From: Acidimicrobiales bacterium AG-414-N20
GTDB lineage: Bacteria > Actinomycetota > Acidimicrobiia > Acidimicrobiales > MedAcidi-G1
NCBI GenBank assembly: GCA_003214465.1
Contig: QCLO01000003.1
Span: 62,001 to 126,000, forward strand
DNA: 64,000 nucleotides
Direction of reading: 5' to 3'
Under the pieces are notes generated by a model. That model did no database searches, was not told the DNA's origin, and saw nothing but the letters and a program-made list of their open reading frames with translations. Each line of letters starts with the position of its first letter. Within the stretch, counting starts at the first letter, position 1. Made by a program: the position numbers and the translations under genes. Positions 47,513 through 64,000 of this stretch are shown here, piece after piece.

Positions 47513-48367
47513 ATGGGGGTAATTATCGCTAAGTCAGTTAATGAAGCATGTGCTGTATTGGCAGAAAATCCTGCGGCAACAGTACTTGCAGGCGGAACTG
47601 ACCTTATGGTGCAAGTAAATAGAGGTACACACTCTTTGGAAACTGTTTTAGACCTAAGTCGAATACCTGAATTGAAAAAATGGACCATGGAAGACAACCA
47701 AATCATTTTAGGAGCAGGAATTTCTTATACAGATTTGACGCATCCCCAATTATCAGCATTTTTTCCTGCTTTAGCGCAAGCAGCAAGAACAGTAGGTTCC
47801 CCACAAATACGCAATGCAGGTACTTTGGGAGGTAATTTAGCTACCGCATCACCTGCCGGAGATACAATTCCTGTGCTCGTAGCAATGGACGCATCTATGC
47901 AATTGAAATCGTCGACAGAAACTCGAGAAGTTTCTATTACAGAATTTATAACTGGCGTTAAAGCAAATGCCCTAAAACCGGGCGAAATTATTGAATCGAT
48001 AAAAGTCCCTATATTCAAAGGGCCTCAGGAATTTCTAAAAGTCGGGACCCGAAACGCAATGGTTATTTCAGTTGTTTCCTTGGCATTAGTAACAGATTAT
48101 TTAGAGAGAAAATTAAGGATAGGTGTAGGTTCTGTATCGCCTGTCCCGTTCCGAGCGACTGAAGCAGAAGAATTTATATCAGATAAATTTGACTGGGAAA
48201 CCAACAGAAATCTCTCAGAAAAAGTTATAAACAAATTTTCTGAACTAGTGGCTAATTCAACAGAACCCATTGACGACCATCGAGGAACTGCAAATTACCG
48301 TAAACACGCAGTAAAAGTTTTAGCTAAGAGAGCTTTGGAAAGAGTTAGCGCGGGAGATATAAAATGA
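47513..48367 (+). CDS. Molybdenum hydroxylase FAD-binding subunit (CoxM/XdhB type)
   Basis: A 284-residue medium subunit carrying FAD between the iron-sulfur and molybdenum subunits. FAD-phosphate loop TVLAGGTDLMVQ near residues 22-33, and TVGSPQIRNAGTLGGNLATASPAGDTIP, the second FAD signature, are clear; the C-terminal CO_deh_flav_C domain follows. It starts the plus-strand operon with no clear ribosome-binding site at ATG 47513. It overlaps the 2Fe-2S gene by four bases. As the only FAD subunit in the island, it may also serve the fused enzyme at 53359. Confidence 0.92.
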   Translation: MGVIIAKSVNEACAVLAENPAATVLAGGTDLMVQVNRGTHSLETVLDLSRIPELKKWTMEDNQIILGAGISYTDLTHPQLSAFFPALAQAARTVGSPQIRNAGTLGGNLATASPAGDTIPVLVAMDASMQLKSSTETREVSITEFITGVKANALKPGEIIESIKVPIFKGPQEFLKVGTRNAMVISVVSLALVTDYLERKLRIGVGSVSPVPFRATEAEEFISDKFDWETNRNLSEKVINKFSELVANSTEPIDDHRGTANYRKHAVKVLAKRALERVSAGDIK

Positions 48368-48864
48368 TTTCTGAAACTTACAGCCTCTTAGTAAATGGTA
48401 AGAGTTACCAAGTTGTCGATGGCCACCCATCTGAAAGTCTTCTATGGGTTTTAAGAGAAAGGCTGGAACTTTCCGGATCAAAAAACGCCTGTGAGGAAGG
48501 GGAGTGTGGGTCTTGCACGGTTCTTGTTGACGGAGAAATTGTTTGTAGTTGTTTAGTGCTTGCAGCGTCTGCTGTAGGTCGCGAAATCACCACAATAGAA
48601 GGACTGGGCTCAGAAGACGAAATCTCAGATGTTCAGAAAGCTTTTGTAGACGCAGGAGCAGTCCAGTGCGGATTCTGTACACCAGGGTTACTGGTAGCGA
48701 TAGATCAACTGTTGAATACAGATCCTGATCCAGATGATTTGACGGTTAGGGAAGCAATTAGTGGAAATCTTTGCAGGTGTACCGGTTATGGAAGGATCCT
48801 CGAAGCTGTTCGGATAGCAAGTAAAAACCGAAAAGTTCAAAATCAAGAGGAACAAGGCAAATGA
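48364..48864 (+). CDS. Molybdenum hydroxylase 2Fe-2S subunit (CoxS/XdhC-small type)
   Basis: A 166-residue small subunit. The N-terminal plant-type ferredoxin cluster uses C43, C48, C51 and C61 or C63 (ACEEGECGSC...VCSC), and the C-terminal helical cluster uses CGFCTPG and CRCTGYGRI. Two [2Fe-2S] clusters pass electrons from the molybdenum centre to FAD. ATGA-type overlaps on both sides (FAD and Mo subunits) indicate coupled translation. Confidence 0.95.
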   Translation: MISETYSLLVNGKSYQVVDGHPSESLLWVLRERLELSGSKNACEEGECGSCTVLVDGEIVCSCLVLAASAVGREITTIEGLGSEDEISDVQKAFVDAGAVQCGFCTPGLLVAIDQLLNTDPDPDDLTVREAISGNLCRCTGYGRILEAVRIASKNRKVQNQEEQGK

Positions 48865-51146
48865 GTCGGCTTCAAACTGTAGATACTGCTACTAAAGGAT
48901 CTCGAATAGGCGAGAGTGCTATTAGGCCAGATGGAGTTCCAAAAGTTAAAGGAGAATTTGTATTTTCCAATGATTTGCGTCACCCTGACATGATTTGGGG
49001 AGGGACTCTTCGATCGCCACACCCATCTGCACGAATAGTTTCGATAAATACAACTCCTGCTCTGAAAATGACGGGAGTGTACGCGGTCTTGACAAGCGAA
49101 GATCTGGACGGCATGCCATTGTACGGACTTGAGCACCCCGACCAGCCAGTTTTAGCAGACGGAGTCGTGAGATTTCAGGGTGAACCGGTAGCAATAGTTG
49201 CAGCTGATCACCCTGACAATGTAAGACTCGCTTTGGAAGCAATAGATGTCGAATATGAACTAATTGAACCACTTTCGGACTCAAAGCTGGCACAAGAAAA
49301 TGAAGCGATACATCCGGATGGAAATCTTTTCAGGGAAATAAACATAAATTATGGAAACTCTCAAGAAGAGGGAGAAATAACTGTTGAAGGAACATATGAA
49401 GTAGGGATGCAAGATCAAGCGCCTTTGGGAACAGAATCAGGAATGGCAGTTCCATCAGAAGATGGAGGAATTGACCTTTTTGTATCGACCCAATGGCTAC
49501 ATGCTGACCGTGATCAAGTCGCTGCCTGTCTAAATCTTCCACCGGAAAAAGTAAGACTTACGTTGGCAGGAGTCGGAGGGGCATTTGGCGCAAGAGAGGA
49601 TATCAGTCTTCACATACATCTTTGTCTCCTGGCTATGAGAACTGGTAAACCCATAAAGATGTCATATTCTCGAACTGAAAGTTTCCATGGACACGTACAC
49701 CGTCACCCAGCGCAGATGTGGTACCGGCATCATGCTAAATCTGACGGAACACTTATACGAATTGAAGCCCGACTACTTTTGGACGGGGGGGCTTATGCCT
49801 CCACAAGCAGCGCTGTATTAGCTAACGCTACTTGTTTTGCGGCCGGGCCGTATCGAGTGCCCAACGTCGAAATATATGGAGCTGTAGTTAGGACAAATAA
49901 TCCCCCTTGCGGAGCTATGAGAGGATTTGGATGCGTGCAAGTTTGTTTTGCCCATGAAGCACAGATGGACAAACTGGCCGTTGAACTAGGTATGGATCCT
50001 GTTGAATTACGAGTAAAGAACGCTCTCGAACCTGGAGATCAGATAATAACCGGACAAACTATTACGGGGACAGCTCCAGTGGCTGAAGTTATAGAGACAT
50101 GCGCTCAACATTCCTCTTCTGTAGGCCCAGCATCACAACAAATGGAGCTACCAGGAGGTGCAGGGAGAACTGCTGATCCAAAACATATTGTAAGAGGAGA
50201 AGCTATTGCAGTTGGATTCAAGAATCTCATGTTTTCAGAAGGATTTGATGATTTCAGTACCGCATCGTGTCAGCTTTTAGACGGGGTAGCGACGATTACA
50301 TCTGCATGTGCCGAAGTTGGCCAAGGTTTTGTGACACTGGCTCAGCAGATAGTCAGAGAAATTTTAGGAGTTGAAGAAGTAATTTTGGCACCCGCTTCCA
50401 CAGCTAGCGTGGGATCGGCGGGCTCCACTTCAGCTAGTAGACAAACTTGGATGTCGGGTGGTGCAGTTAAGAGTGCGTGTGATGCGGTGCGCATCAAACT
50501 TTTGTCTCGCATCGCAGAATCTCATGATCTAGATGTCGAATCTTTGGTAATAGTTGATGGAGGAATAGCTTCCTTATCAAGCGAGTTCTCGATCAGTTTG
50601 AAAGAAGCTACTTCTGATCTAGTAGAAGCAGAAGAGGTCTATCGACATGTACCCACTTTCCCCTTAGATGAAAATGGTCAAGGGAATGCCCATGTTTCTT
50701 TTGTATTTTCAGCACATAGAGCAGTAGTGGATGTGGATCAGGAACTTGGATTAGTCAAAGTCGTCGAATTAATAACTTCCCAAGATGTAGGAAGAGTATT
50801 GAACCCACTGCAACTTCAAGGCCAATTGGAAGGTGGAGCTGCACAAGGTCTTGGCTTGGCTGTAATGGAGGAAATTAATGTTGTAGACGGTCGAATTCTG
50901 AATCCGTCTTTTACCGATTATCTCCTACCTACTGCTCTTGACATGCCACCTGTAGAAATAGCAGCGCTTATAGAACAACCAGAACCTAATGCACCTTTTG
51001 GAGCGAAAGGTGTTGGAGAGCCTCCAGCCATTTCATCGACAGCTGCCATAGCTTCAGCAGTCAGAAATGCTACGGGTTTAGATCTTCATAGGGTCCCAAT
51101 TAGACCTACAGACATTGTTTTTCCAGAAAGGAACGATAATGACTGA
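48861..51146 (+). CDS. Molybdenum hydroxylase, molybdopterin-binding subunit (xanthine dehydrogenase type)
   Basis: A 761-residue catalytic subunit that hydroxylates a carbon in an N-heterocycle or aldehyde using water. It opens with the ab-hammerhead domain (VKGEFVFSNDLRHPDMIWGGTLRSPHP), has VGGAFGAREDIS at the Mo-cofactor loop, AMRGFG, and the catalytic base in GAKGVGEPPAIS near the C-terminus. It lacks the AYRGAGR signature of CO dehydrogenases, so xanthine-dehydrogenase-like activity on purines or similar rings is more likely. Its last eight bases overlap the carbamoylase start. Confidence 0.93.
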   Translation: MSRLQTVDTATKGSRIGESAIRPDGVPKVKGEFVFSNDLRHPDMIWGGTLRSPHPSARIVSINTTPALKMTGVYAVLTSEDLDGMPLYGLEHPDQPVLADGVVRFQGEPVAIVAADHPDNVRLALEAIDVEYELIEPLSDSKLAQENEAIHPDGNLFREININYGNSQEEGEITVEGTYEVGMQDQAPLGTESGMAVPSEDGGIDLFVSTQWLHADRDQVAACLNLPPEKVRLTLAGVGGAFGAREDISLHIHLCLLAMRTGKPIKMSYSRTESFHGHVHRHPAQMWYRHHAKSDGTLIRIEARLLLDGGAYASTSSAVLANATCFAAGPYRVPNVEIYGAVVRTNNPPCGAMRGFGCVQVCFAHEAQMDKLAVELGMDPVELRVKNALEPGDQIITGQTITGTAPVAEVIETCAQHSSSVGPASQQMELPGGAGRTADPKHIVRGEAIAVGFKNLMFSEGFDDFSTASCQLLDGVATITSACAEVGQGFVTLAQQIVREILGVEEVILAPASTASVGSAGSTSASRQTWMSGGAVKSACDAVRIKLLSRIAESHDLDVESLVIVDGGIASLSSEFSISLKEATSDLVEAEEVYRHVPTFPLDENGQGNAHVSFVFSAHRAVVDVDQELGLVKVVELITSQDVGRVLNPLQLQGQLEGGAAQGLGLAVMEEINVVDGRILNPSFTDYLLPTALDMPPVEIAALIEQPEPNAPFGAKGVGEPPAISSTAAIASAVRNATGLDLHRVPIRPTDIVFPERNDND

Positions 51147-52383
51147 AGATCTTCGAATAAATGGTGACCGTCTTTTGAGTCGTATTGAAGAATTAGCATC
51201 TATAGGGGCTATCGATGGGGGTGGTTCTTGCCGCCTTGCCCTAACGGATGAAGATCGAGCAGGTCGCGACCTTGTTGTTACATGGATGAGAGATTTAGAT
51301 CTCGATATAAGTATTGATTCAATTGGAAACGTAGTAGCAGTTAGACCTGGAAAAACTGATGGTCCGCCAACTATGACAGGAAGTCATATCGACACTGTTA
51401 GAACTGGGGGGAGATATGACGGCAATTTAGGCGTACTCGCAGGTTTAGAGATAATAGAGTCTCTTTCTGAAAATAAAATTGAGACCCAACATCCAGTAGC
51501 AGTTGCTTTTTTTACCGATGAAGAAGGTTCTAGATTCGCACCGGACATGTTAGGCAGTCTCGTTTATGTAGGAGGAATGACACTTGAGGAGGCCTTAGAT
51601 ATAAAAGGTGTTGATGGGGCCAAAGTCGGAGATGAATTAGACCGCATTGGTTATAGAGGGACCTCTCCTTGCCCCGGTCCTTCACCTAGAGCTTTTGTTG
51701 AGTTGCATATTGAACAAGGCCCTGTTTTGGAAGTAGAAGGTGTAACAATAGGAGCTGTTACAGGAGTGCAGGGGATTTCATGGACTGAGCTCACAGTCAC
51801 TGGAGAATCTAATCATGCAGGAACCACTCCAATGGCTCTTAGACGTGATTCAGGCTTTGCAGCCGCCGCGATTTCTACTTATGTCCGTGATCTATCTTTA
51901 GAAATGGGAGGAAGTCAAGTAGCTACAGTTGGCAGACTCGAGCTTCACCCTAACTTGGTGAATGTGGTGGCAGGTTCAGCTGTTTTGACTGTAGATCTAA
52001 GAAACACTGTCGAGGCTTATTTATTAGAGTCTGAAAATAAGCTTGCTGATTTTCTATTAGAACTAGCTTCAAATGAAGGTTTAGAAATTGAAAAAAGACA
52101 ATTAGCTAGATTTGAGCCTGTCGAATTCAATCAAGAAGTTGTTGACACAGTAGAAAATATAGCTTCCCGACTAGGGCACTCAGTAATGAAACTTCCGTCT
52201 GGTGCAGGACATGATGCCCAGATGATGGCAAGAGTTTGCCCAACAGGGATGGTATTTGTGCCAAGCCACAAAGGGATAAGTCACAACCCACAGGAACATA
52301 CAGATTCCGATGACCTCATTGCAGGTTGCAACGTTTTATTCCAGACGATTCTTGATTTAGACATGAAAGATCTCGGAGGCTAG
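51139..52383 (+). CDS. M20-family N-carbamoyl-amino acid / allantoate amidohydrolase
   Basis: A 414-residue zinc-dependent amidohydrolase of the HyuC/AllC/beta-ureidopropionase branch. Metal ligands are in GSHIDTVRTGGRYDGNLG, TDEEGSRF, ELHIEQGPVLE and the C-terminal HNPQEHTD; SGAGHDAQMM is also conserved. The dimerisation lid lies between. It hydrolyses N-carbamoyl-L-amino acids, allantoate or ureidoglycine-type ureides. Start ATG at 51139 has AGAAAGGA upstream; an in-frame extension to 51115 lies inside the Mo-subunit gene. The next gene is a D-type carbamoylase. Confidence 0.9.
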   Translation: MTEDLRINGDRLLSRIEELASIGAIDGGGSCRLALTDEDRAGRDLVVTWMRDLDLDISIDSIGNVVAVRPGKTDGPPTMTGSHIDTVRTGGRYDGNLGVLAGLEIIESLSENKIETQHPVAVAFFTDEEGSRFAPDMLGSLVYVGGMTLEEALDIKGVDGAKVGDELDRIGYRGTSPCPGPSPRAFVELHIEQGPVLEVEGVTIGAVTGVQGISWTELTVTGESNHAGTTPMALRRDSGFAAAAISTYVRDLSLEMGGSQVATVGRLELHPNLVNVVAGSAVLTVDLRNTVEAYLLESENKLADFLLELASNEGLEIEKRQLARFEPVEFNQEVVDTVENIASRLGHSVMKLPSGAGHDAQMMARVCPTGMVFVPSHKGISHNPQEHTDSDDLIAGCNVLFQTILDLDMKDLGG

Positions 52384-52387
52384 AAGT

Positions 52388-53353
52388 ATGACACGTATTT
52401 TGAAAGTAGGCGCGGCTCAACTTGGACCTATACAGAGAGATAACAATAGAAAGATAGTAGTTGAGAGACTTATTGCGCTTTTACATAAAGGAGCAGCGGA
52501 ATCTTGCGATCTTGTGGTTTTTCCAGAATTGGCTCTTACAACCTTTTTCCCGAGATGGTGGTCGGAAGACATATCCGAATTCGATCATTTTTTCGAAACC
52601 GAAATGCCGAATCAAGAAGTTCAGCCATTATTTGATAAGGCGAAAAAATTAGGAGTCGGTTTTCATTTGGGTTATGCAGAAATGACTCCTGATGGTCATC
52701 GTTACAACACCGCAATTCTTGTTTCCAAAAACGGTGACAAGCTCGGTAAATATCGAAAAGTTCATCTTCCCGGCCATGAAGAGAATGAGCCTTGGAGAAC
52801 TTTTCAGCATTTAGAACGCTACTACTTCGAACCTGGTAACGAATTAAAGGTATTTGGAGCGTTTGATGGAGTTTTGGGTATGGCTATCTGTAATGATAGA
52901 AGATGGTCAGAAACCTACAGGGTGCTTGGATTGCAAGGTTGTGAGCTAGCACTTATTGGGTATAACACCCCAGTCCATTACCCTCCTGATCCAAGCCAGG
53001 ATGTTTTAGCTGGCTTTCATAATCATTTGGTAATGCAATCAGGTGCATATCAGAATGGGATGTGGGTAGTTGGAGTAGCTAAAGCTGGCAATGAAGAAGG
53101 TTGTGATCTTTTAGGAGAGAGTTCGATAATAGCTCCATCTGGTGAAATCGTTGCTCAGTGTTCAACGGTAGAAGACGAATTAGTATCAGCAGTTGTCGAT
53201 TTAGACATGTGTGCAAACTATAAGGAAACTCTTTTCGATTTTGATCGTTACAGGAGACCCGAGGTATACAAGTCAATTACTTCGCAAGTTGGTGTTGAAA
53301 TACCTGAAGGAATTGAAGTTCGAAAACAAGACGATGAAAACCCTGAAGGATAG
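52388..53353 (+). CDS. N-carbamoyl-D-amino acid hydrolase-type nitrilase-superfamily enzyme
   Basis: A 321-residue carbon-nitrogen hydrolase that closely follows the Agrobacterium N-carbamoyl-D-amino acid amidohydrolase pattern: VFPELALTTFFPRWW, FETEMP, KYRKVHLPGHEE, MAICNDRRWSE and YNTPVHYPP...FHNHLVMQSGAYQNG. The catalytic triad would be Glu47, Lys124 and Cys168. It removes the carbamoyl group to give amino acid, CO2 and ammonia. Preceded by GGAGG and only 4 bp after the M20 carbamoylase. Substrate stereochemistry is inferred from family resemblance. Confidence 0.88.
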   Translation: MTRILKVGAAQLGPIQRDNNRKIVVERLIALLHKGAAESCDLVVFPELALTTFFPRWWSEDISEFDHFFETEMPNQEVQPLFDKAKKLGVGFHLGYAEMTPDGHRYNTAILVSKNGDKLGKYRKVHLPGHEENEPWRTFQHLERYYFEPGNELKVFGAFDGVLGMAICNDRRWSETYRVLGLQGCELALIGYNTPVHYPPDPSQDVLAGFHNHLVMQSGAYQNGMWVVGVAKAGNEEGCDLLGESSIIAPSGEIVAQCSTVEDELVSAVVDLDMCANYKETLFDFDRYRRPEVYKSITSQVGVEIPEGIEVRKQDDENPEG

Positions 53354-53358
53354 TTGAC

Positions 53359-55941
53359 ATGACGACTTTCGAACTAAACGGTGTAAAGGTTGAGACTGAA
53401 AAGTCACATCCACATCTTTTAGCTGCGATTCGGGATGAGTTCGGACTTATTTCTCCAAAAGATGGTTGCGCTCCATCTGGTCAGTGCGGATGTTGCACTG
53501 TTTTGATCGATGGAAAAGCACGAATCGCTTGTCAGACATCAATGGAGAAAACGGAAAATACAAAAGTTTTAACATTAGAAGGTTTTGATCCGAAAGAGCG
53601 TGAACTTTTTTCACAGACCTTCGCAGCACACGGGGCCCTTCAATGCGGATTTTGCATTCCGGGTATTTTGGTTAGAACTAAGTCACTAATTGACCGCAAA
53701 GGAAGCTCGTTAACTCGTGAAGAGTCATCTAGACATTTAGGAGCCCACCTTTGCAGGTGCACAGGTTATACCAAAATTTTAGATGCAGTTGAAGCTTTAG
53801 CTTCAGGTGAAGTACCCGTAAAAATCCAAACAGGGGGTGTCGGGACCTCAGGAAGTCGTTATGAAGCAGAAGCTTTGAGTTTAGGAGACAGGCCATTTAT
53901 TGACGATATAAAGCCTAGTGGTTTACTTCATGGGGCTGTGAGGTTGTCTGATCATGCAAGAGCAGAAGTTGTAAGGATAAATATAGAGGTTGCGGAGAAG
54001 TTAGAAGGAGTTGAGAAGGTAATCACAGCTTCTGATGTTCCAGGTGAGTTGCGAGTTGGTCTAATACATCAGGATTGGCCAATATTTATTCCCGAAGGCG
54101 GGAAAACCTCTTACATGGGTGATGTCTTGGCTTTAGTAGTTGCAAAAGACAGAGAGACAGCCCGCAAAGCAGCTGAATTAATTGAGATTGAGTACAGAGT
54201 TTTAAAACCATTTAGTGATCCCGTAGAAGCAGTTAACTCTAATGAAGATGCAGTTTGGGGTTTAGATGGCAATGTTTTGTCAGAGTCAAGTTATGAGCGT
54301 GGCGATACCGAAAAAGCTTTTCAGGGATCAAAATATATAGTTGAAGAAGTATTTCAGACCCAGAGAGTTGAACAGGCTTTTCTTGAGCCTGAATCAACAC
54401 TTGCGGTTCCTAATGATGAAGGACTATATGTGTATTCAGGCGGTCAGGGGGTCTGGGATGACCGAAATCAGATCGCAAAAGTACTTGGAGTTGAGACAAG
54501 TGCGGTAACGGTTGAGCTTGTTTCTAATGGTGGTGCATTTGGCGGAAAAGAAGACATGTCAAATCAGGCACAGACTGCTTTAGCTGCACATCTAATAGGG
54601 AAACCAGTAAGTTGCACTCTAAGCCGCGAAGAGTCGTTACTAATCCACGCTAAGCGACATCCAATTCAAATGCAATATAAAGCAGGTTGCGATGAGAACG
54701 GCATACTCACTGGATTGTGGGTTCGAATGATTGGCGATTCAGGACCATATGCCTCAGTAGGTATGAAGGTACTGGAAAGGGCTGCAGGTCATGCAAGTGG
54801 TCCTTATGTAGTTAATGCAATTGATGTTCGTTCAATCGCAGTAAGAACAAATAATCCAGTAGGAGGAGCTTTTCGAGGTTTTGGCGCCAATCAAGCTCAG
54901 TTTGCGATGGAAGGAGTAATGGACCGACTCGCAGAAAAAGTCGGAATAAGCGGATGGGAGATTAGAAAGCGTAACGTTGTTAAACCTGGTTCAATCTGGG
55001 GACCTGGCCAGATAATGGATGAAGGTAGCAGAGGGGCGGATTCCTGTTTAGAAGCAATTAAAGAACCATATGATCAGGCAATCAAAGATGGGAAAGTAGT
55101 CGGTTTAGGTTTAGGTCTAAAAAATTCTGGTCTCGGAAACGGTGCAAAAGAAATAGCTAAGGCGATAGTGAGATTCCGCAAAGATGGAAAAGTCGAAGTC
55201 AGACACTGTTGGACTGAAATGGGACAAGGAGTTCACACAGTAGCTTTGCAAGTAGCAGTTGAAGAGTTAGGTATCGACCCTTCCTTGATAGATGTAATTG
55301 TGGACACGAGTCGAGAAATGAATGTAGGGCAAACGACTGGTAGTCGAGGCACGTTAATGGGGGCAGGGTCAGTTGCCGACGCTTGCAGGGTAGCTATGGC
55401 TGATGGATGTAAACCTGAGATTGACTATCAGGGAGAATATAGAGTTGATTGGACCAATTCGATGTCTGATGATGTAGAGAACCCTTTGATTCATTCAACT
55501 TTTGGTTACGCAGCGCAACTGGTGGTAATGAGCGAAGAAAAAGAAAAGGTTGAGTACGTAGTGGCAGCTCATGATGTTGGCAGGGCAGTAAACCCAGTTT
55601 TGTGTGAAGGGCAAATTGAAGGATCGGTGCATATGGGATTGGGATACGCTCTCACAGAAGGTTTCCCTACAAATGAAGAATCAAGACCTTTAAATATGAC
55701 ACTTAAGGCCCTTGGTATTTTGCGACCTAAGGACATGCCCCCTGTGGAAGTAATCCTAGTTGAAGAGCCACAACCTGATTCACCTTATGGAATAAAAGGA
55801 GTTGGGGAAATCGGACTAGTACCCACCGCTGGGGCAGTAGCAGCCGCTTTGCATAATCAAGATGGAATTTGGCGAAATAGCCTGCCAATGGCCTCAGATA
55901 ATCAACAGGAGAATTGGCAAGAGTGGAATTGTGATGACTGA
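53359..55941 (+). CDS. Fused 2Fe-2S / molybdopterin hydroxylase (XdhD, selenium-dependent xanthine dehydrogenase type)
   Basis: An 860-residue protein with iron-sulfur and molybdenum domains on one chain. Residues 1-155 hold both [2Fe-2S] sites (GCAPSGQCGCC...ARIAC; CGFCIPG; LCRCTGYTKI); the rest is the Mo-binding part, with SNGGAFGGKEDMSNQAQ, GGAFRGFGANQAQ and the catalytic base in GIKGVGEIGLV. No FAD domain is present. This layout is that of E. coli XdhD and of the selenium-dependent xanthine dehydrogenase group, and the island encodes YqeB/YqeC. Selenium would be a labile ligand on Mo, not selenocysteine. GAAGGA lies upstream of the ATG. Confidence 0.88.
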   Translation: MTTFELNGVKVETEKSHPHLLAAIRDEFGLISPKDGCAPSGQCGCCTVLIDGKARIACQTSMEKTENTKVLTLEGFDPKERELFSQTFAAHGALQCGFCIPGILVRTKSLIDRKGSSLTREESSRHLGAHLCRCTGYTKILDAVEALASGEVPVKIQTGGVGTSGSRYEAEALSLGDRPFIDDIKPSGLLHGAVRLSDHARAEVVRINIEVAEKLEGVEKVITASDVPGELRVGLIHQDWPIFIPEGGKTSYMGDVLALVVAKDRETARKAAELIEIEYRVLKPFSDPVEAVNSNEDAVWGLDGNVLSESSYERGDTEKAFQGSKYIVEEVFQTQRVEQAFLEPESTLAVPNDEGLYVYSGGQGVWDDRNQIAKVLGVETSAVTVELVSNGGAFGGKEDMSNQAQTALAAHLIGKPVSCTLSREESLLIHAKRHPIQMQYKAGCDENGILTGLWVRMIGDSGPYASVGMKVLERAAGHASGPYVVNAIDVRSIAVRTNNPVGGAFRGFGANQAQFAMEGVMDRLAEKVGISGWEIRKRNVVKPGSIWGPGQIMDEGSRGADSCLEAIKEPYDQAIKDGKVVGLGLGLKNSGLGNGAKEIAKAIVRFRKDGKVEVRHCWTEMGQGVHTVALQVAVEELGIDPSLIDVIVDTSREMNVGQTTGSRGTLMGAGSVADACRVAMADGCKPEIDYQGEYRVDWTNSMSDDVENPLIHSTFGYAAQLVVMSEEKEKVEYVVAAHDVGRAVNPVLCEGQIEGSVHMGLGYALTEGFPTNEESRPLNMTLKALGILRPKDMPPVEVILVEEPQPDSPYGIKGVGEIGLVPTAGAVAAALHNQDGIWRNSLPMASDNQQENWQEWNCDD

Positions 55942-56986
55942 CGAGCTTATTGGGTCAAATGAGACGTATGGTCTTGTTTGCGCCCACCATCACCTTTATT
56001 CAACGCTGGCTAGAGGAATGCCTGCACCAGCGAGCCAGCCTGACAACTTTGAAGAGATACTAAAGTTAGTCTGGTGGCGACTTGATAGAGCCCTTGACCT
56101 CGAATCGATTAAATGGTCTGCGATGCTGGGAGCCCTTGAAGCGCTCGAGCGTGGATGTACAGCAATTGTCGATCATCACGAATCCCCAGAAGCGATCGAA
56201 GGTTCTTTGAGCGTTATAGCCGAGGCTTGTGAAACTGTCGGTATAAGAGTCTTGTGTTCTTATGGAGTAACTGATCGGCATGGTCCTGATGGAGCAAAAA
56301 AAGGATTAGAAGAAAATAGAAGGTTTTTGGAAGAAGGGGGACGCGGAATGGTCGGTTTACATGCGTCCTTCACATGTGAAGATGAGACAATAGAATCTGC
56401 TGTTGAAATAGCTGAAAGTTTTGGTGTTGGTGTTCATGTCCACGTAGCAGAAGGTGCAGTAGATGCAAATGCTGTTTCAAGATTAAAGAACTATTCAAGA
56501 GACAATTGGCTCATTATTCATGGGGTGCATCTTGAAGATAGTCACGATCTGAAAGGAATTCTGGTTCATAACCCTCGATCAAACATGAATAATTCTGTCG
56601 GATACGCCAATCCTGTTCGCTTTAGCAACCAGATTGCATTAGGCACAGATGGAATTGGCGCAGACATGCTTGAAGAGTTTCGTCTTGCTTATGCACGTCA
56701 TCGTGAGTCTGATGTAAAAGCTTCGCCAGAGATAGCTTGGGAATGGCTAACGAATGGCTATCGAGTTGTTCCCGAAGCAATGAACGATCGGGTTGTTTGG
56801 GATTACCCAAACATGGACCCCTGGGAGCTCGCATTTTCAACAGGGGTTAATCCAATAGAGGTTATAGTCGAACAAGAAACCATTTGGTCAAATGGGACAC
56901 CAACTCTCGTCGACCCTCATGAAATTAGAGCGAAAGCCGCTGAACAAGCAAGAAAAGTTCACGCAAGATTAGCTGAAATTGTTTGA
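55934..56986 (+). CDS. SsnA-like amidohydrolase, N-terminally short
   Basis: A 350-residue COG0402-type metal-dependent amidohydrolase/deaminase. The HxH ligand pair is H18/H20 in [60 protein letters not shown] and [10 protein letters not shown] follow as in SsnA. SsnA is about 440 residues; this one lacks most of the ~60-residue N-terminal beta-sandwich strand region before HxH, and the preceding 24 in-frame codons do not supply it. SsnA accompanies selenium-dependent xanthine dehydrogenase in other bacteria, and here it overlaps that gene by eight bases. Confidence 0.85.
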
Positions 56987-57015
56987 AGTTCAGTTTTAAG
57001 AAAAAAGGAGAGAAA

Positions 57016-58017
57016 ATGACTCGATTAGGAATATACCTTCAAGATGCACATTCGATAAGCGAAGCAATCGAATATGCACAGTATGCCGAGTCGAATGGTT
57101 TTGAAGCTGTATGGCAGGCTGATTCACGTCTTGTTCGTGACGCTGTTGTACCTATGGCCGCATTTGCAGCAGAGACCGAAAAGATAAAAATAGGTTCTGG
57201 TGTGGTTGATTGCTGGACCCGAAATCCTGCAAGACTAGCGTCCACTTTTTCAACTTTAGATGACTTAGCACCGGGTCGAATCATTCTTGGTATTGGAGCA
57301 TGGTGGGACCCATTGGCTTCAAAGGTGGGAATAGAACGCAAAAAACCTCTAAAAGTGATGAGGGAAGTGGTTACAACAGTTCGGGCTTTGTTAGCCGATG
57401 AAACTGTTACTTACTCAGGTGATTTTGTGCAACTTGATGGTGTAGAGCTCGATTATGTATATCAGGAACGGCGACCAAAAGAGGTCCCTATATACATAGG
57501 AGCTACTGGAATGAAAATGATGGAGTTGACTGGTGAGATTGCCGACGGTGTCGTTCTTAACTATTTGGTTTCACCCGAATACAACAAAAGAGCGATGGAG
57601 CATTTAGAAATAGGGGCTTCAAAAGCCGGTAGAAGTATTGATGAAATCGACCGTCCTCAGCTTCTAGTTTGTTCCCTAGCCGAGGATCGAAAAGAAGCTT
57701 TAGACGGAGCTCGACTTATGGTCACTCAATACTTAGGACAGCAACCTCACATCATGAAGGCTTCTGGAGTTCCTGAAGAACTTCTAGATGAGATAGGTCA
57801 AGTTTTGACATGGCCGGCAACACATGAACAAGTAGAGGCAGCATCAAAATTGGTTCCTGATGAAGTTGTTCAGATGATTTGCGCTGCTGGCACTCCTGAT
57901 GAGGTAAGAGAAAAAGTAGCCCAATATATGGAAGATGGCTGCACATGTCCGATTCTCTATCCATTAGGACCAGATGTCAGATTGATGATTGACACTTTTA
58001 GCGATTGGTCACCATGA
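57016..58017 (+). CDS. LLM-class flavin/F420-dependent oxidoreductase (Mer-like)
   Basis: A 333-residue luciferase-fold enzyme resembling F420-dependent methylenetetrahydromethanopterin reductase: [75 protein letters not shown], and [25 protein letters not shown]. The ATG at 57016 has AAAGGAG five bases upstream. It lies between two amidohydrolase genes, overlapping the next by four bases (ATGA). It may oxidise or reduce a ring intermediate, using F420 (CofC is encoded at 39190) or FMN. The paralogue at 60084 is in the converging operon. Confidence 0.85.
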
Positions 58018-59312
58018 ATAACCGTTTAGTCATAAGGGGATTGCGGTACCCCGGTGACATAGCTATAGAAAATGGTGTCATAACTGAAGTTGGCTTAGTT
58101 GAACCGCAAGACAATGATCAAGTGGTTACTTGCACTGGAGATATAGCTACTCCAGGTTTGATAAATACTCATCACCACTTATATCAATGGATGACACGTG
58201 GACGAGCAGTTGGTTGCAACTTGTTTGATTGGTTGGTGCATCTATACCCTGTCTGGGGCAAACTGTCGGTCGATGATGTGCATGCTGCTGCGCTAGTCGG
58301 TTTAGGTGAATTAGCCTCAACAGGCTGCACAACAGCATTTGACCATCACTACTTGGTGCCAAATGGTGACGACTCAGTGTTTGATGCAATAGTCGAGGCA
58401 GCTCAACAGGTCGGAATTAGATTACATTTATCACGAGGCTCTATGGATCTTGGAGAGAGCCAAGGGGGGCTGCCCCCAGATCATGTTGTAGAAGATCGAG
58501 AAGCAATCCTTTTATCTACAGAATCAATAATTTCAAGACATCATGATGGGGAAATGGTTCACGTTGTTGTGGCCCCGTGCAGCCCTTTTTCCGTGACCAC
58601 GGAATTAATGATTGATTCTGCGGAGCTTGCTAGAAAACACGGTGTTCGTCTTCATACTCATCTTTGCGAAACTTTAGAGGAACAAGAGTACTGTCTTGAG
58701 AAATTTGGAAGGCGACCAGTCGAGATGTTGGACGAATGGGGTTGGGTTGACAATGATGTTTGGCTGGCACATGGTATCCACATTGATAAAGAAGAAATGC
58801 AGAGACTGGGAGGAGCAGGTACAGGTATTGCACATTGTCCATCCTCGAATGCGCGTTTGGCAGCAGGAATGTGCCCGGTGACAGATCTTTTGGAAGCAGG
58901 TTGTCCGGTCGGACTTGGAGTAGATGGGGTGGCTTCGAATGAGATCGGTGGTTTATTCCCAGAACTTAGACAAGCACTTTTTACTGCACGGCAAAGAGAA
59001 ATGAGACCTGATGCTCTTATGCCAGAAGAAGTAGTCGAGATGGCAACAATAGGTGGAGCGCGCTGTTTGGGCTTAGAGGATTTAGGAAGTTTCGCAAAAG
59101 GCCAAAAGGCAGATATTGCTATTTGGCCGGGTGCAGACCTAGGTGATATTCAAGATTCTATAACGGGTCTTGTAATGGGACCAGACAGAAGAGTGAAGCA
59201 CCTTTTTGTTGGAGGAAACCAGATCATCGATCATTCAGAGTTGAAAAATGTTGATATGAGTTCGGCTTATTTAGAATTATCTACACATGCCAGGCGACTT
59301 TTTGATGATTGA
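58014..59312 (+). CDS. Amidohydrolase, 8-oxoguanine deaminase-like
   Basis: A 432-residue COG0402 deaminase with the full two-domain plan: N-terminal beta-sandwich, then [21 protein letters not shown] (metal ligands H53 and H55), [36 protein letters not shown] and [12 protein letters not shown]. These match the 8-oxoguanine/isoguanine deaminase and hydroxyatrazine aminohydrolase group, which deaminates purine or triazine rings. ATGA overlap with the LLM gene. It ends the plus-strand operon and converges on the minus-strand operon. Confidence 0.88.
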
Positions 59313-59380: not shown

Positions 59381-60082
59381 CTAGTTAAAAGGGCTTGCAA
59401 CTCCAAATTTTGCCTTTTCTCCAGTTAAAGCGCCCCAACGGCGTGTACCGAACTCAAAATGCCACCACTCCTCTTCAAAAACAACAAAGTTATGTGTGTG
59501 CATCGTCCAATACAAAAAACGACGAAAATCCCTATTAAAACCTGAGATTTCTTCTAAAAAATCGGCTCTAGCTGCAGGAGAAATATCATCAAATCCTGAT
59601 CCGGGTGCCAAAGGAACATTATCAACGGTGAAAGTAAGGTCAACTGCTCCGCCAGTCAAATGAGGAGGTGGAGCAACAGGATCGCTGCTTGGTTCGGCGA
59701 ACAATTCTTCCGGAATCAGTGGATCTTCGCATGCGGTTTTAAAAAGTTCATTTTGTAGAGCCAGCGGTCTCCATGCATCAAAAATGGCCAATCCCCACCT
59801 GTCCGGTAGTTCTTCAGCTATGTCATATAGTTTTTCTGCAACAGATTCACGGATCCAGCAGCCATCTATAGCATTTTCCCAGCCTGCTTCCCAGTAGCAA
59901 TTCAGCAGTTTGACATCGGGGTGCTTTAATTCAACAAGAGGTTCGTTATCAAATATTTCCAAATCAGATGCTTTAGGTTCCTGCAATTCAGGGATAGCTT
60001 CTGATTCAGGAATGTTTATGTTGACATTTTCAAAAAATTTTTGCACGTCAGTGGTAAGAACAGGTTCTCCAATTTTTTGCAT
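59381..60082 (-). CDS. D-alanyl-D-alanine dipeptidase (VanX/M15D family)
   Basis: A 233-residue zinc dipeptidase. VanX-type residues are visible: Arg105 in DAWRPLALQ, His141 and Asp148 in PHLTGGAVDLTF, and Glu205 and His208 in EEEWWHFEFG. The family cleaves D-Ala-D-Ala and related short peptides. It has no resistance ligase or dehydrogenase (vanA/H) next to it and no signal peptide, so peptide or amide nutrition is more likely than vancomycin resistance. ATG at 60082 has GAAGG upstream, inside the end of the previous gene; TTG at 60094 is the alternative. Last gene of the minus-strand operon. Confidence 0.85.
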   Translation of the reverse strand: MQKIGEPVLTTDVQKFFENVNINIPESEAIPELQEPKASDLEIFDNEPLVELKHPDVKLLNCYWEAGWENAIDGCWIRESVAEKLYDIAEELPDRWGLAIFDAWRPLALQNELFKTACEDPLIPEELFAEPSSDPVAPPPHLTGGAVDLTFTVDNVPLAPGSGFDDISPAARADFLEEISGFNRDFRRFLYWTMHTHNFVVFEEEWWHFEFGTRRWGALTGEKAKFGVASPFN

Positions 60083-60083
60083 A

Positions 60084-61049
60084 TTAACCTTCAATAACCT
60101 GAGCTGTTATTTCAAGTAAAGAGACTCCGTTATCAGGTTCAAACACCGGAATCATGAATTCATTAAAACCATGAATTTCAACAAGACGAGCAAGCTCTTC
60201 AGCACATTCGCTTACACTTCCAGAGATCACGAAAGGTAGAACCCAATCATCAGACACGTATTCGGCCGCTGCTTCAAGGCCATCAGCAAGAGAACTGCGG
60301 ATATTTGAAACATCTTTTTCAGTGACACCCAACTCATCGAGCACTGTCTTAGGCGAGTCCACCAGACGGTATGTCATATGAGGTCTAACAATTTCAAGAG
60401 ACTCATCGTCAGTGACGATCATTGTTGAATAACAAATTTTCGGATTGTTGCTCCCACGTTCAGCGCCCATCCTTATCTTCTCTACATATTCACCGAGTGA
60501 AGGTTTGAAAATAAAATCCAGCATCACTCCATCAGCAGTAGAACCACCAAGGTCAAGCATTTTAGGGCCACGACCAGCCAACCAAATTTCAATATCAGAT
60601 CTTCCATAATTTAATTCCGCAGAATTGAAAGAAAATACTGGTGCCTCCAAATCAACTTTTTCACCAGCGAACAACTGTCGACAGGCAGAAATAGTTTGAC
60701 GAACAGTTTCGATAGGTTTGTAACGCTCGATTCCAAGAGGATCCAAAGTTAAACTTCCACCGGCTCCTATTCCTAAAAAAGCACGACCGTTAGACATTTC
60801 ATCGAGCGAAGCTATAGCAGCAGCAGTCTGACCCGGATGACGGGTGTAAGAATTCGTAATACCGGGACCAACCACTAATTTTTCAGTAGCCCGCAGAATC
60901 GCAGTCATAGTGACATAAACATCTCGAGTTGCTAAACCTTCGTCATACACCCAGCAGCGCTCAAAACCCAACTTTTCAGACCTGATAGCTAAATCACGTA
61001 TCGAGTCAACTGAAGTTTCTGGAATGAGATTGACACTTCCTGGAATCAT
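60084..61049 (-). CDS. LLM-class F420-type oxidoreductase (Mer-like, second copy)
   Basis: A 321-residue luciferase-fold protein: LAIRSEKLGFERCWVYDEGLATRDVYVTM, LVVGPGITNSYTRHPGQTAAAIASLDEMSNGRAFLGIGAGG, and IEIWLAGRGPKMLDLGGSTADGVMLDF, a Mer-like plan as in the 57016 gene but clearly diverged from it. Sits between YqeC and the dipeptidase, 9 bp after yqeC. Having one in each arm of the island suggests both work on the island's substrate. Cofactor F420 versus FMN is not resolved by sequence alone. Confidence 0.85.
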   Translation of the reverse strand: MIPGSVNLIPETSVDSIRDLAIRSEKLGFERCWVYDEGLATRDVYVTMTAILRATEKLVVGPGITNSYTRHPGQTAAAIASLDEMSNGRAFLGIGAGGSLTLDPLGIERYKPIETVRQTISACRQLFAGEKVDLEAPVFSFNSAELNYGRSDIEIWLAGRGPKMLDLGGSTADGVMLDFIFKPSLGEYVEKIRMGAERGSNNPKICYSTMIVTDDESLEIVRPHMTYRLVDSPKTVLDELGVTEKDVSNIRSSLADGLEAAAEYVSDDWVLPFVISGSVSECAEELARLVEIHGFNEFMIPVFEPDNGVSLLEITAQVIEG

Positions 61050-61058
61050 CTAAGAAAC

Positions 61059-61796
61059 CTATCCTTTGTTATGACTTAGAACTAGAGAAATTTCAACTTT
61101 TGGGTCAAAACTCTGAAGCTCTTCAACTAAACGGTTAACAATATTTTGGTTTTTAGTAGAAACCTTCGTAATTGCTATAACGAAACGCATTCCATTTTCT
61201 AACCCTTTTCTAGATCCGTTCGAATCAAGTAAAAGAACGGCAGCCCTTTGCGGGGTGAGTCTTTCATAAGGAGAACAATTAACTACTGCAGCGACCCTCA
61301 GAGGTCTATGGCATTGGTCTTCAATAACTCTATCAATCGCATCAGCGCCGATCACTGCAATAACAGTTGTTACACCTAGGGGTAAAACAGGTTCGTAAGG
61401 CGCAGGAGCCTTAGCAGGGTGCCGCCTTGCCCCATCTGCTTCAACAATGACTCTGGTTGCTTCGGGTAGCCAGCTTTCTGGCAGTGAAGGGTCAACACCG
61501 AAAGCTTTTTCACCCTCGACGCGATCCCATATTAGAACAGGAGAAGTTCCGTCCAAGGCTCCGACAAGTTCCTTTTCGGAAGGACTAACAAGTAAAGTTG
61601 CTTCTCCTGTTTGGTCACTCCCCATTTTAGTTGTTGTAGTTAAAATCGTGCCTTTACCGTGAAGTTCTCCAAGCGCCTTAAGAAGAGTTGATTTACCCCC
61701 ACCTCCGACCAGAGCAACTATCTCACCTTCTTTTATCCCTAGATTTTCGACAGCCTTGTGAACCTCTAAAGGTTCGATTCGTTTTTTTCTAACCAT
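61059..61796 (-). CDS. yqeC: YqeC-family selenium-dependent molybdenum hydroxylase maturation protein
   Basis: A 245-residue P-loop protein: Walker A is ALVGGGGKSTLLKAL (near residues 28-42), then TILTTTTKMG, and VIVEADGARRHPAKAPAPYEPVLP, the signature of the YqeC family. It is a marker gene of genomes with selenium-dependent molybdenum hydroxylases, thought to act in selenium or Mo-cofactor insertion. Its start overlaps the 3' end of the yqeB-like gene by 31 bases in another frame, so translation is coupled. selD is not in the window. Confidence 0.88.
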   Translation of the reverse strand: MVRKKRIEPLEVHKAVENLGIKEGEIVALVGGGGKSTLLKALGELHGKGTILTTTTKMGSDQTGEATLLVSPSEKELVGALDGTSPVLIWDRVEGEKAFGVDPSLPESWLPEATRVIVEADGARRHPAKAPAPYEPVLPLGVTTVIAVIGADAIDRVIEDQCHRPLRVAAVVNCSPYERLTPQRAAVLLLDSNGSRKGLENGMRFVIAITKVSTKNQNIVNRLVEELQSFDPKVEISLVLSHNKG

Positions 61797-62569
61797 TTAG
61801 TTACAGCTTCCGTTACGCCGTTTCCAACTGCTAGAGCCTTGTCAGAAACTTTGCTTACATCAACATTCGCACCTCTCGGGTCGATATCTCCGATCTTCAT
61901 GCCAGCTTCTAGCAGCATGCCCTCATTAATCATTCCACGAATCAGTCCGCTAGTTCCGGCAACTATACAGCTATCTCCTACGGAGCCGATTACTTCACCT
62001 TTTTTGACTAAATCGCCTATGTCCTTCATCCAGTGAATTTCCCCATTAGAAGGAGAACGCAATAATCGCTCACTTGTAAGCCCTCCAACTTCACCAGGAA
62101 TTCCTGTATCTTTATGTGCATAACCATCCCAAATGACTTTCCCCAGATTCGGTCCGCGCATGGTCTCGATAACAGCATGGCAGTCCTTACCTGCAAAGAA
62201 ACCAGGTCCAAGAGCAACAACTAGTTCGGCATCATCGATTTTCGTATCCATAGGGTTTTTCATCATTCTGGCATCGACAATTACAGAAATGGGAAAAGTT
62301 GGAAGAGTATCGCTAATTAGAACTGGGACAACGTTAGTAAACGTAAAGTCATCAACATTTGAAAGGTCATCAACTCTTTCGCCTATTATTTCTTCTATTT
62401 CTATTTTTTTGTCGAGAATCGCTGACGAAAGTGAAACTTTTCTTCTTACCGCCAAAGGATTTTCTAAATCAAATACGACTACAGGCATTCCTTTTCTTTT
62501 CAACTGAAGAGCGACACCGGTTCCCAGATCGCCGCCTCCACGAATTAAACAGAGATAATCAGAAATCAC
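61766..62569 (-). CDS. yqeB: YqeB-family selenium-dependent molybdenum hydroxylase maturation protein (EF2563 type)
   Basis: A 267-residue protein starting LCLIRGGGDLGTGVALQLKRKGMPVVVFDLENPLAVRRKVSLSSAI, the nucleotide-binding opening of the YqeB/EF2563 family, with DARMMKNPMDTKIDDAELVVALGPGF and MRGPNLGKVIWDG in the middle and a C-terminal biotinyl-like DIGDLVKKGEVIGSVGD segment. It is expected to take part in making the selenated Mo-cofactor. It lies 2 bp after the XdhC-like gene and overlaps yqeC by 31 bases. Confidence 0.88.
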   Translation of the reverse strand: MISDYLCLIRGGGDLGTGVALQLKRKGMPVVVFDLENPLAVRRKVSLSSAILDKKIEIEEIIGERVDDLSNVDDFTFTNVVPVLISDTLPTFPISVIVDARMMKNPMDTKIDDAELVVALGPGFFAGKDCHAVIETMRGPNLGKVIWDGYAHKDTGIPGEVGGLTSERLLRSPSNGEIHWMKDIGDLVKKGEVIGSVGDSCIVAGTSGLIRGMINEGMLLEAGMKIGDIDPRGANVDVSKVSDKALAVGNGVTEAVTKWLEKNESNL

Positions 62570-62571
62570 AG

Positions 62572-63375
62572 TTAATTATTACTAGTATTATCTTTTTCGA
62601 TGATTTGAGACACGATAGAAATAGCTATTTCTTGCGGGGTCTCGGCATTCAAATCTAGACCTATAGGAGAAGTGACTCTAGATAGATCTTGTTCGGAAAT
62701 GCCAGCTGAGGATAGTGAAGAACGAGTGGTTTCCCATCGTCTAGAGCTTCCCATCACTCCGATTGATTTTGCATCAGTAGAAAGTAAATGAGGAAGATTC
62801 TGGATATCCAATTCAGCATTACGTGTAACTGCTACTACATGATCTTGATTGGTTAAATTGACCTGTTTTAAGGCATCTTCAATTGAGCCGGCGATAACAA
62901 GATCCGCCCCCGTTACATCATCGGCAAGTTCCTCTCGGTCGTCAGTCGCGACGACGTAATAGCCCAACCAGCTAGCAAGTTCCGCCACGGCTCTTCCAAC
63001 ATGACCGCATCCGATAATAAGAATTTTAGAATTGGGCATATAGGCCTCCAAGTGAATAGTAACCGTTCCACCACAAACACCTGGATCTCCAGCTACTGGA
63101 TCAACTAGCTCATAGTTCAGCAGAAGTGAAGTGCCGTCGTCCATGCAGGCGCAGGCTTCTTTTATCACCCGCGCTTCCATTTCTCCACCACCTATAGTTC
63201 CAATTTGATTAGAGTCGGAAAGTATCAACATTTTTGCTCCGGAATGACGTGGTACAGATCGAGAAGTTTCCACAACGGTTGCCAGTACAACAGTATTTCC
63301 TTCATCAACGAGTTCATTGAGTTTGTTCAGTATCTGAGTTTCATCGATACCCTTACTGAGATTCTTTTTACTCAT
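62572..63375 (-). CDS. xdhC: XdhC/CoxI-family molybdenum cofactor maturation protein
   Basis: A 267-residue maturation factor that delivers the sulfurated (or selenated) Mo-cofactor to hydroxylases. The N-terminal XdhC-CoxI domain shows VVLATVVETSRSVPRHSGAKMLI and IGTIGGGEMEARVI; the C-terminal Rossmann domain has ILIIGCGHVGRAVAELASWLGYYVVATDDREE and VAVTRNAELDIQNL, and then GVMGSSRRWE. ATG at 63375 has GGGGTG upstream and overlaps the preceding amidohydrolase by eight bases; a longer in-frame reading to 63453 lies inside that gene. Confidence 0.92.
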   Translation of the reverse strand: MSKKNLSKGIDETQILNKLNELVDEGNTVVLATVVETSRSVPRHSGAKMLILSDSNQIGTIGGGEMEARVIKEACACMDDGTSLLLNYELVDPVAGDPGVCGGTVTIHLEAYMPNSKILIIGCGHVGRAVAELASWLGYYVVATDDREELADDVTGADLVIAGSIEDALKQVNLTNQDHVVAVTRNAELDIQNLPHLLSTDAKSIGVMGSSRRWETTRSSLSSAGISEQDLSRVTSPIGLDLNAETPQEIAISIVSQIIEKDNTSNN

Positions 63376-64000
63376 TTTCACCCCAGAGGCGTTTAGCTTG
63401 CCGATGAATTGACTCTCTTTGCTTTTCAAGATCGACCCCAAGAATCTCACCATTTTTTAACTTCCATACTCCATCAATCATCACAGAGTCGACATGATTG
63501 CCAGATCGATGAAGTATTACTTGTTCGATCAGGTTTTCTTCACTTAAGGGAGTTGGAAAGTTCGCGTCAATTAATTGGAGGTCAGCTACAAAACCTGGTT
63601 CCAAAGCACCGACATTATCAAGTCCCAGTGCTTTGGCTCCCTGGAGAGTTGCCATTTCAAAAACTTGGTCTGCCAGCATTGTTCCAGGGTCTTGAAGACG
63701 CGCTTTGTGGATAAGAAAAGCACCACGCATTACCTCAAACATATCATTTATGTATCCGTCGCTTCCCAGAGAGATACACACATCTTTTTCAAGCAGTTCG
63801 GGAATAGGAGCTATTCCACCTCCGACTTCACAATTAGACAAAGGCATATGGACACAACGCGTTCCGGAAGATGAAATTAATTCAATTTCCCTTTCGGATA
63901 GATGGACACACTGTGAAGCCAGAAATCGGGGGCCGTTTATTCCAAGTTTTTCGTAATGCTCGAAAGTCCGGTGTCCAAAAGTTTTTTCACACCAGTCTCC
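63368..64000 (-). CDS. Amidohydrolase (COG0402 type), C-terminal part, cut by window edge
   Basis: The frame is open to the right edge, giving 210 residues of a C-terminal half. It includes the ligand segment ASQCVHLSEREIELI, VHMPLSNCEVGGGIAPI, the catalytic Asp in SLGSDGYINDM, then the closing beta-sandwich with the typical ATLQGAKALGLDNVGALEPGFVADLQLID and VMIDGVWKL. The family deaminates or hydrolyses ring C-N bonds. It is the first gene in this window of the minus-strand yqeB/yqeC operon and a third amidohydrolase in the island. Its N-terminal HxH lies outside. Confidence 0.87.
   Translation of the reverse strand, partial: GDWCEKTFGHRTFEHYEKLGINGPRFLASQCVHLSEREIELISSSGTRCVHMPLSNCEVGGGIAPIPELLEKDVCISLGSDGYINDMFEVMRGAFLIHKARLQDPGTMLADQVFEMATLQGAKALGLDNVGALEPGFVADLQLIDANFPTPLSEENLIEQVILHRSGNHVDSVMIDGVWKLKNGEILGVDLEKQRESIHRQAKRLWGENE

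Follow-up and report, generated by a model that had tools for sequence, protein, structure and literature searches.

Since 2008 it has been a question how labile selenium reaches molybdenum (Mo) enzymes, and which enzymes carry it. Haft and Self reported diverse Mo enzymes near YqeB, none of which led to a family restricted to SelD-positive genomes, and YqeB itself (TIGR03309) was reported only in selD+ genomes (PMC2276186). On urate, the yqeB and selD mutants of C. difficile show similar behaviour (PMC11448449). Meanwhile, the XdhD-YgfM enzyme of E. coli reduces urate to yanthine with NADH, with YgfK and SsnA taking the next steps, and an F420 enzyme has been predicted in place of YgfK in Chloroflexota (PMC12507026). 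Most known carriers of the selenium-cofactor trait are anaerobes (PMC5029168).

Here we describe a locus in which YqeB is accompanied by a Mo enzyme that lost its Fe-S cluster ligands and is encoded just past the edge of the window (the whole 64,000-nucleotide stretch of DNA that was analysed). Because one enzyme family tracks YqeB across a bacterial class, there is a named client to test. These findings extend the selenium-cofactor trait to bacteria of the oxic surface ocean, and raise the chemical question of how electrons pass through XdhD-type enzymes devoid of Fe-S clusters.

The xdhC-yqeB-yqeC cassette and its host

The source DNA belongs to the genus MedAcidi-G1 of the Acidimicrobiales, which inhabits the oxic upper ocean; the host genome is 1.8 Mb and 85% complete. 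The nearest named contigs come from marine Acidimicrobiales, including 'marine actinobacterium MedAcidi-G1', in agreement with an earlier sequence-only reading that had placed the locus in an actinobacterium. An origin in SAR202/Chloroflexota, which the 43% GC had suggested, was rejected on the basis of named contigs of the same genus. The genus is epipelagic and never found below 150 m, and selenium goes unmentioned in the paper describing the family (PMC10205998).

The cassette is the 3' part of an operon that extends past the window edge. Its genes are listed below, with off-window genes given as equivalents (position in L020 plus 62000 gives the window coordinate):

59381-60094, minus strand: D-Ala-D-Ala-dipeptidase-like M15 protein (PF01427), a conserved operon end
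60084-61049, minus strand: LLM2, LLM-class (F420-type) oxidoreductase (PF00296, 150 bits), conserved downstream of yqeC
61059-61796, minus strand: yqeC, putative accessory protein for the selenium cofactor, with a P-loop (VGGGGKST) (TIGR03172, PF19842)
61766-62569, minus strand: yqeB, selenium-dependent Mo cofactor maturation protein (TIGR03309)
62572-63453 (alternative start 63375), minus strand: xdhC-type maturation factor (PF02625 and PF13478)
63368-64000, minus strand: SsnA-type amidohydrolase of 443 aa, cut by the window edge (full gene equivalent to 63368-64699)
64702-67623, off-window, same operon as the cassette: XdhD-type Mo enzyme, 973 aa
67623-68363, off-window: FAD subunit (YgfM-like), 246 aa

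Profile searches recovered yqeC, yqeB and xdhC on the minus strand where the sequence-only reading had placed them. The 31-base overlap it described between yqeB and yqeC is exact (61766-61796), and both genes do sit with XdhC, of which both domains were matched. The outer boundary needs qualification, as 63375 is the second ATG of xdhC and the longest open reading frame begins at 63453; alignments with xdhC relatives start at about residue 25. YqeC scored 144.4 bits against TIGR03172 (cut-off 73.05) and also matched PF19842, with no alternative start within its first 30 codons, and YqeB scored 293.6 bits against TIGR03309 (cut-off 220). The cassette is kept in seven of the eight other genomes of the genus, in identical order wherever the contig permits, and this conservation at the same place indicates that it is not a chance arrangement. 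Upstream of xdhC, the SsnA-type, XdhD and FAD-subunit genes follow one another closely, separated or overlapping by a few bases. The full order, FAD-XdhD-ssnA-xdhC-yqeB-yqeC, is kept across families in Acidimicrobiia loci (named GTDB contigs). A second amidohydrolase and another LLM oxidoreductase lie ahead of the FAD-XdhD-ssnA genes.

YqeB combines an N-terminal Rossmann-like part with a C-terminal biotinyl/lipoyl-like barrel-sandwich domain, its residues ~165-230 matching lipoyl/BCCP domains in both profile and Foldseek searches; a resemblance to the biotin carrier protein was noted by the authors of the C. difficile study (PMC11448449). The pair Cys130-His131 is conserved here. We rejected a universal YqeB cysteine as selenium carrier: Cys130 is absent in E. 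faecalis, Peptoclostridium and Haloterrigena, and a cysteine-bound carrier is therefore not general. Nor is YqeC a strict partner of YqeB, being missing in 6 of 24 YqeB+ genomes and present in 12 YqeB- genomes. In the sister genus g6, yqeC is absent beside yqeB in five of six YqeB+ genomes, in line with the missing yqeC phenotype of C. difficile. YqeC matches over cut-off were also seen without YqeB over cut-off (L244-L248, L255 (genus g2), L249-L254), most of them away from Mo hydroxylases, so YqeC may have a second role.

The sequence-only reading would have fallen had selD been absent, and it supposed that, were selD present without selA/selB, selenium use would be restricted to a single enzyme. 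A search of the host genome for selD, selA, selB and tRNA-Sec found all four (tRNA-Sec at 64 bits, with ARAGORN in agreement), and SelD is not an orphan, that is, one without selA, selB and tRNA-Sec. The selD gene carries an in-frame UGA at the active site, ...HGAG(UGA)GCK... (L001:1510-2544, genome C13), a feature common to nearly all relatives examined. By its sequence, SelD is thus itself a selenoprotein and Sec decoding is present. The combination of selA, selB, tRNA-Sec and the UGA in selD means that selenium use is not confined to one enzyme, and the supposed restriction does not hold. A cysteine-desulphurase-like gene lies immediately upstream of selD (L019:6232-7401). The gene set of the SDMH trait (selD, yqeB and yqeC) occurs in this one genome, and Mo hydroxylases occupy the same locus: the off-window XdhD-type enzyme in the same operon and a TIGR03311-type enzyme convergent with it. 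Candidates for a YgfJ-family molybdenum cofactor cytidylyltransferase were discarded, as the genome matches were weak and under the cut-off.

The molybdenum enzyme that tracks YqeB

The distribution of these genes was compared among 119 genomes of the order, 24 of them YqeB+ and 95 YqeB-; the XdhD orthologues counted have 72% identity or more. SelD was present in 23 of the 24 YqeB+ genomes, the exception being 68% complete, and 65 genomes were SelD+ and YqeB-. XdhD orthologues occurred in 22/24 YqeB+ versus 1/95 YqeB- genomes (p=1e-20, uncorrected for phylogeny), and within the family in 19/21 versus 1/27 (likewise uncorrected). Exceptions G003 and G016 are contig breaks. Across the class, fused XdhD was found in many families. 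Its gene has yqeB as a neighbour at 38 of 42 loci, and contig ends account for three of the other four. Meanwhile, in a sister clade (45-51% identity) that uses a separate [2Fe-2S] subunit, yqeB was adjacent in 0/18 loci, 12 of which hold enough sequence to show it (p=2e-9). The Mo enzyme that tracks YqeB is the off-window XdhD-type enzyme of the cassette's own operon.

Two loci were observed to depart from the usual arrangement. In G033 (L062 / L144), yqeB and LLM2 are kept and the FAD-XdhD-ssnA-xdhC block is gone between the amidohydrolase and yqeB, through either deletion or misassembly. In G330 (L283), a fused cluster-less XdhD, ssnA and LLM2 are present, but the 7 kb downstream contain neither xdhC nor yqeB.

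The off-window XdhD is 36% identical over its full length to E. coli XdhD and 45% identical to the Haloterrigena Mo enzymes encoded beside yqeB-selD, the nearest annotated homologues among those compared. It scored 643 bits against TIGR03313 (cut-off 1102), so it is XdhD-type and falls outside the equivalog; it shares with E. coli XdhD a fused cluster-less N-terminal domain, an FAD partner gene and the equivalent of Glu606. None of the eight [2Fe-2S] ligand cysteines is present in any of 50 distinct orthologues checked (0/8 in 50/50), in the class-wide set (0/8 in 41/41) or in E. coli XdhD (0/8), whereas the separate [2Fe-2S] subunits of the sister clade have all eight (18/18). The N-terminal domain has thus parted with the eight ligands of a xanthine-oxidase-type [2Fe-2S] domain and retained a fold of the ferredoxin type: along its length the AlphaFold model corresponds to 1sij, a fused aldehyde oxidoreductase, with a low-confidence stretch (36-44) at the cluster loop. 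In the tree, E. coli XdhD, on a long branch, groups with the cluster-bearing clade (97/95), and a single Fe-S loss shared with it was borderline rejected (AU p=0.044, long branch); for these reasons the loss may have occurred once or twice. In text searches of the 2025 E. coli paper (PMC12507026), Fe-S came up for YgfK only, so the ligand loss seems to have gone unremarked there.

At the Mo site, the catalytic Glu is conserved in all sequences, and the xanthine-type Glu/Arg pair is not kept in XdhD. On the basis of a model, Glu606 of E. coli XdhD was suggested to orient urate (PMC12507026); the position aligned with it is occupied by Glu in 63/63 homologues, in an alignment that is gapped nearby. 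Among solved structures, the best sequence relative is 4-hydroxybenzoyl-CoA reductase (1rm6), a dehydroxylase.

Convergent with the operon lies a purine cluster within the window:

47513-51146, plus strand: three-subunit xanthine dehydrogenase (FAD, 2Fe-2S, Mo; TIGR03196 pucD, 844 bits, cut-off 784)
51115-52383, plus strand: hydantoinase/carbamoylase-type M20 hydrolase (TIGR01879, 401.7 bits, cut-off 204)
52388-53353, plus strand: nitrilase/N-carbamoyl amidase family (TIGR03381, 107 bits, under cut-off)
53359-55941, plus strand: fused [2Fe-2S]-Mo hydroxylase, TIGR03311 / E. faecalis type, with xanthine-type residues
55862-56986, plus strand: ssnA1, SsnA-like short amidohydrolase (best to NF005540/TIGR03314, under cut-off)
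56983-58017, plus strand: LLM1, LLM-class F420-type oxidoreductase
58005-59312, plus strand: 8-oxoguanine deaminase, product urate (NF006055, 548.6 bits, cut-off 532)

The sequence-only reading correctly described 53359-55941 as fused and convergent with the cassette, and took it for an XdhD-type hydroxylase; it is instead TIGR03311-type, 38% identical over its full length to the E. faecalis Se-XDH and 23% to E. coli XdhD, although its 802.5 bits against TIGR03311 fall just under the 830.45 cut-off. It retains the xanthine-type Glu/Arg pair, the catalytic Glu and, like TIGR03311-type enzymes generally, 8/8 Fe-S cysteines. The convergent SsnA-like protein of that reading is the ssnA1 product, 38% identical to E. 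coli SsnA over residues 37-299. As called, ssnA1 shares 80 bases with the end of 53359-55941, but translation more likely starts from the ATG at its codon 25 (55934); its product is without the N- and C-terminal parts of a typical SsnA. LLM1 occupies the spot beside ssnA1 that a YgfK homologue holds at six yqeB loci from other Acidimicrobiia or from related MAGs (L172, L176, L180, L186, L209, L211). These six homologues show about 43% identity to E. coli YgfK across its N-terminal 400 residues and lie within 20 kb of the XdhD-yqeB operon, forming an E. coli-like reductive urate gene set. Urate is the product of both the 8-oxoguanine deaminase and the pucD-type xanthine dehydrogenase of the cluster, and no uricase was found in 49 relatives.

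A predicted selenium-loaded XdhD and the alternatives

We propose, with a probability of about 0.6, that YqeB, YqeC and XdhC put selenium on the cluster-less XdhD, which would reductively dehydroxylate urate or a similar N-heterocycle. The xdhC-yqeB-yqeC genes would be the maturation end of the operon, and the off-window XdhD with its YgfM-like FAD subunit would be the Mo enzyme. SelD would make selenophosphate, and YqeB would deliver selenium as the terminal Mo ligand of XdhD, with assistance from XdhC and, less strictly, from YqeC. F420-dependent LLM enzymes may reduce the ring, the role of YgfK in E. coli, and SsnA-type amidohydrolases may open it. Gene content, operon order, co-distribution, Fe-S ligand loss, Mo-site residues, SelD and Sec decoding are direct observations. 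Selenium on the Mo of XdhD is a well-supported prediction from them, and we infer the substrate, the order of steps and the electron path. A reductive F420-linked urate route is plausible given Glu606, the exchange of YgfK for LLM enzymes, the lack of a detected uricase and the gathering of urate-yielding enzymes.

Several points stand against a Mo-Se XdhD. We know of no selenium measurement for any XdhD, and one paper reportedly considers E. coli unlikely to make any SDMH. Fe-S clusters are retained in those SDMHs that are proven or likely, E. faecalis Xdh and E. barkeri NDH. The hosts live in oxic water, whereas the trait is mostly anaerobic, and G033 has yqeB without XdhD just as G330 has XdhD without yqeB nearby. 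In addition, no dependence on selenium was reported from the assays of E. coli XdhD.

The sequence-only reading had named 53359-55941 as the recipient of selenium. Its likeness to the selenium-dependent Xdh of E. faecalis, in identity and in xanthine-type residues, its presence in 24/24 YqeB+ genomes of the order sample and its position close to the cassette all speak for this choice. However, it lies on the opposite strand in a different operon, and the TIGR03311-type enzyme is found in 25/27 YqeB- members of the family as well as in 21/21 YqeB+ members (p=0.50). Its orthologues in relatives are 64-75% identical and have the same neighbours, and YqeB- genera retain the whole purine cluster (xdh FAD/FeS/Mo, M20, nitrilase, TIGR03311-type, ssnA1, LLM1 and 8-oxoguanine deaminase). 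Orthologues occur even in genomes without detectable SelD (G049, G086, G106), of which G049, a 4.6-Mb single contig that is 99% complete, has no SelD match and a close orthologue. TIGR03311-type enzymes sit beside yqeB in 17/80 named loci, versus 51 for XdhD. As orthologues exist without YqeB and without detectable SelD, 53359-55941 is probably the wrong client, and we regard selenium loading onto it in place of XdhD as unlikely; in this host it probably works as a plain sulphido-Mo enzyme, and would use selenium optionally at most. TIGR03311 enzymes are not confined to genomes with SelD/YqeB, and the name therefore overpredicts selenium use. Such enzymes were seen at L221, L222 and L223 without detectable SelD, and the one in G086 exceeds the curated cut-off. 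An in-frame TGA in the Mo hydroxylases of G086 and G106 was considered as selenocysteine and dismissed; in the G086 locus examined, the TGA lies where two genes in one frame meet. It is similarly doubtful that YqeB acts as a general inserter, with both Mo enzymes taking selenium where YqeB is present and the TIGR03311-type using sulphur elsewhere. Clostridial work suggests such mixed sulphur/selenium use (PMC11448449), and the complete co-occurrence in the order fits it, but within the family the TIGR03311-type enzyme has no tie to YqeB.

Two further explanations dispense with a Mo-Se enzyme. The operon could encode a selenate reductase feeding selenide to SelD, so that YqeB would be linked to it through selenium supply. 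This follows an older annotation of E. coli YgfK/M/N (TIGR03313 and TIGR03312 are so named, and were matched under cut-off), and it would be unusual for a hydroxylase to have an N-terminal domain that lacks cluster ligands. We nevertheless consider it very unlikely: the many SelD+ YqeB- relatives are without the operon, the amidohydrolase and LLM neighbours suit a heterocycle, and urate reduction by E. coli XdhD-YgfM has meanwhile been demonstrated (PMC12507026). More improbable still is a YqeB that matures a sulphur-only Mo enzyme with no role for selenium. YqeB and YqeC singletons exist and YqeB is without direct biochemistry, but this conflicts with SelD in nearly all YqeB+ genomes, with the reported restriction of TIGR03309 to selD+ genomes and with the phenotype shared by the C. 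difficile yqeB and selD mutants.

Beyond the loading of XdhD by YqeB, a broader idea can be put forward tentatively: within the xanthine oxidase family, a Mo-Se branch that gave up both [2Fe-2S] clusters might serve aerobic marine bacteria in F420-linked reductive degradation of urate or a similar heterocycle. YqeB-dependent selenium on Mo would go hand in hand with the disappearance of the Fe-S relay, perhaps on two occasions (Acidimicrobiia and E. coli XdhD). With the relay lost, electrons would have to reach the Mo-Se centre by another route.

Comparison with known systems

Like the proposed enzyme, 4-hydroxybenzoyl-CoA reductase belongs to the xanthine oxidase family and works as a reductive dehydroxylase; it has Fe-S clusters and another substrate, and to our knowledge no selenium has been reported for it. 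The plasmid SDMH loci of Haloarcula and Haloterrigena contain the closest annotated Mo enzymes compared (45%), beside yqeB, yqeC and selD, but have separate [2Fe-2S] subunits keeping 7 or 8 of 8 Cys, and XdhC is fused to YqeB. The E. faecalis cluster EF2563-EF2570, with an orphan SelD and a selenium-dependent Xdh, likewise combines overlapping yqeC/yqeB, an XdhC-type gene and a Mo hydroxylase within a purine cluster. It differs in its yqeC-yqeB order, in having selD, mocA and sclA inside the cluster, in the type of Mo enzyme (TIGR03311-type with 8/8 Cys) and in having no Sec system. In the E. coli locus xdhD-ygfM-ssnA-ygfK-mocA-yqeC-yqeB (PMC12507026), identity is 36%, XdhC and YqeB are fused rather than encoded separately as in MedAcidi-G1, YgfK stands where the aerobic MedAcidi-G1 has LLM (F420-type) enzymes, and XdhD belongs to another clade of the tree. 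Both loci nevertheless pair a cluster-less XdhD (0/8 Cys) with a YgfM-like FAD subunit, have an SsnA-type amidohydrolase and yqeB/yqeC close by, and keep the catalytic Glu and the Glu606 position.
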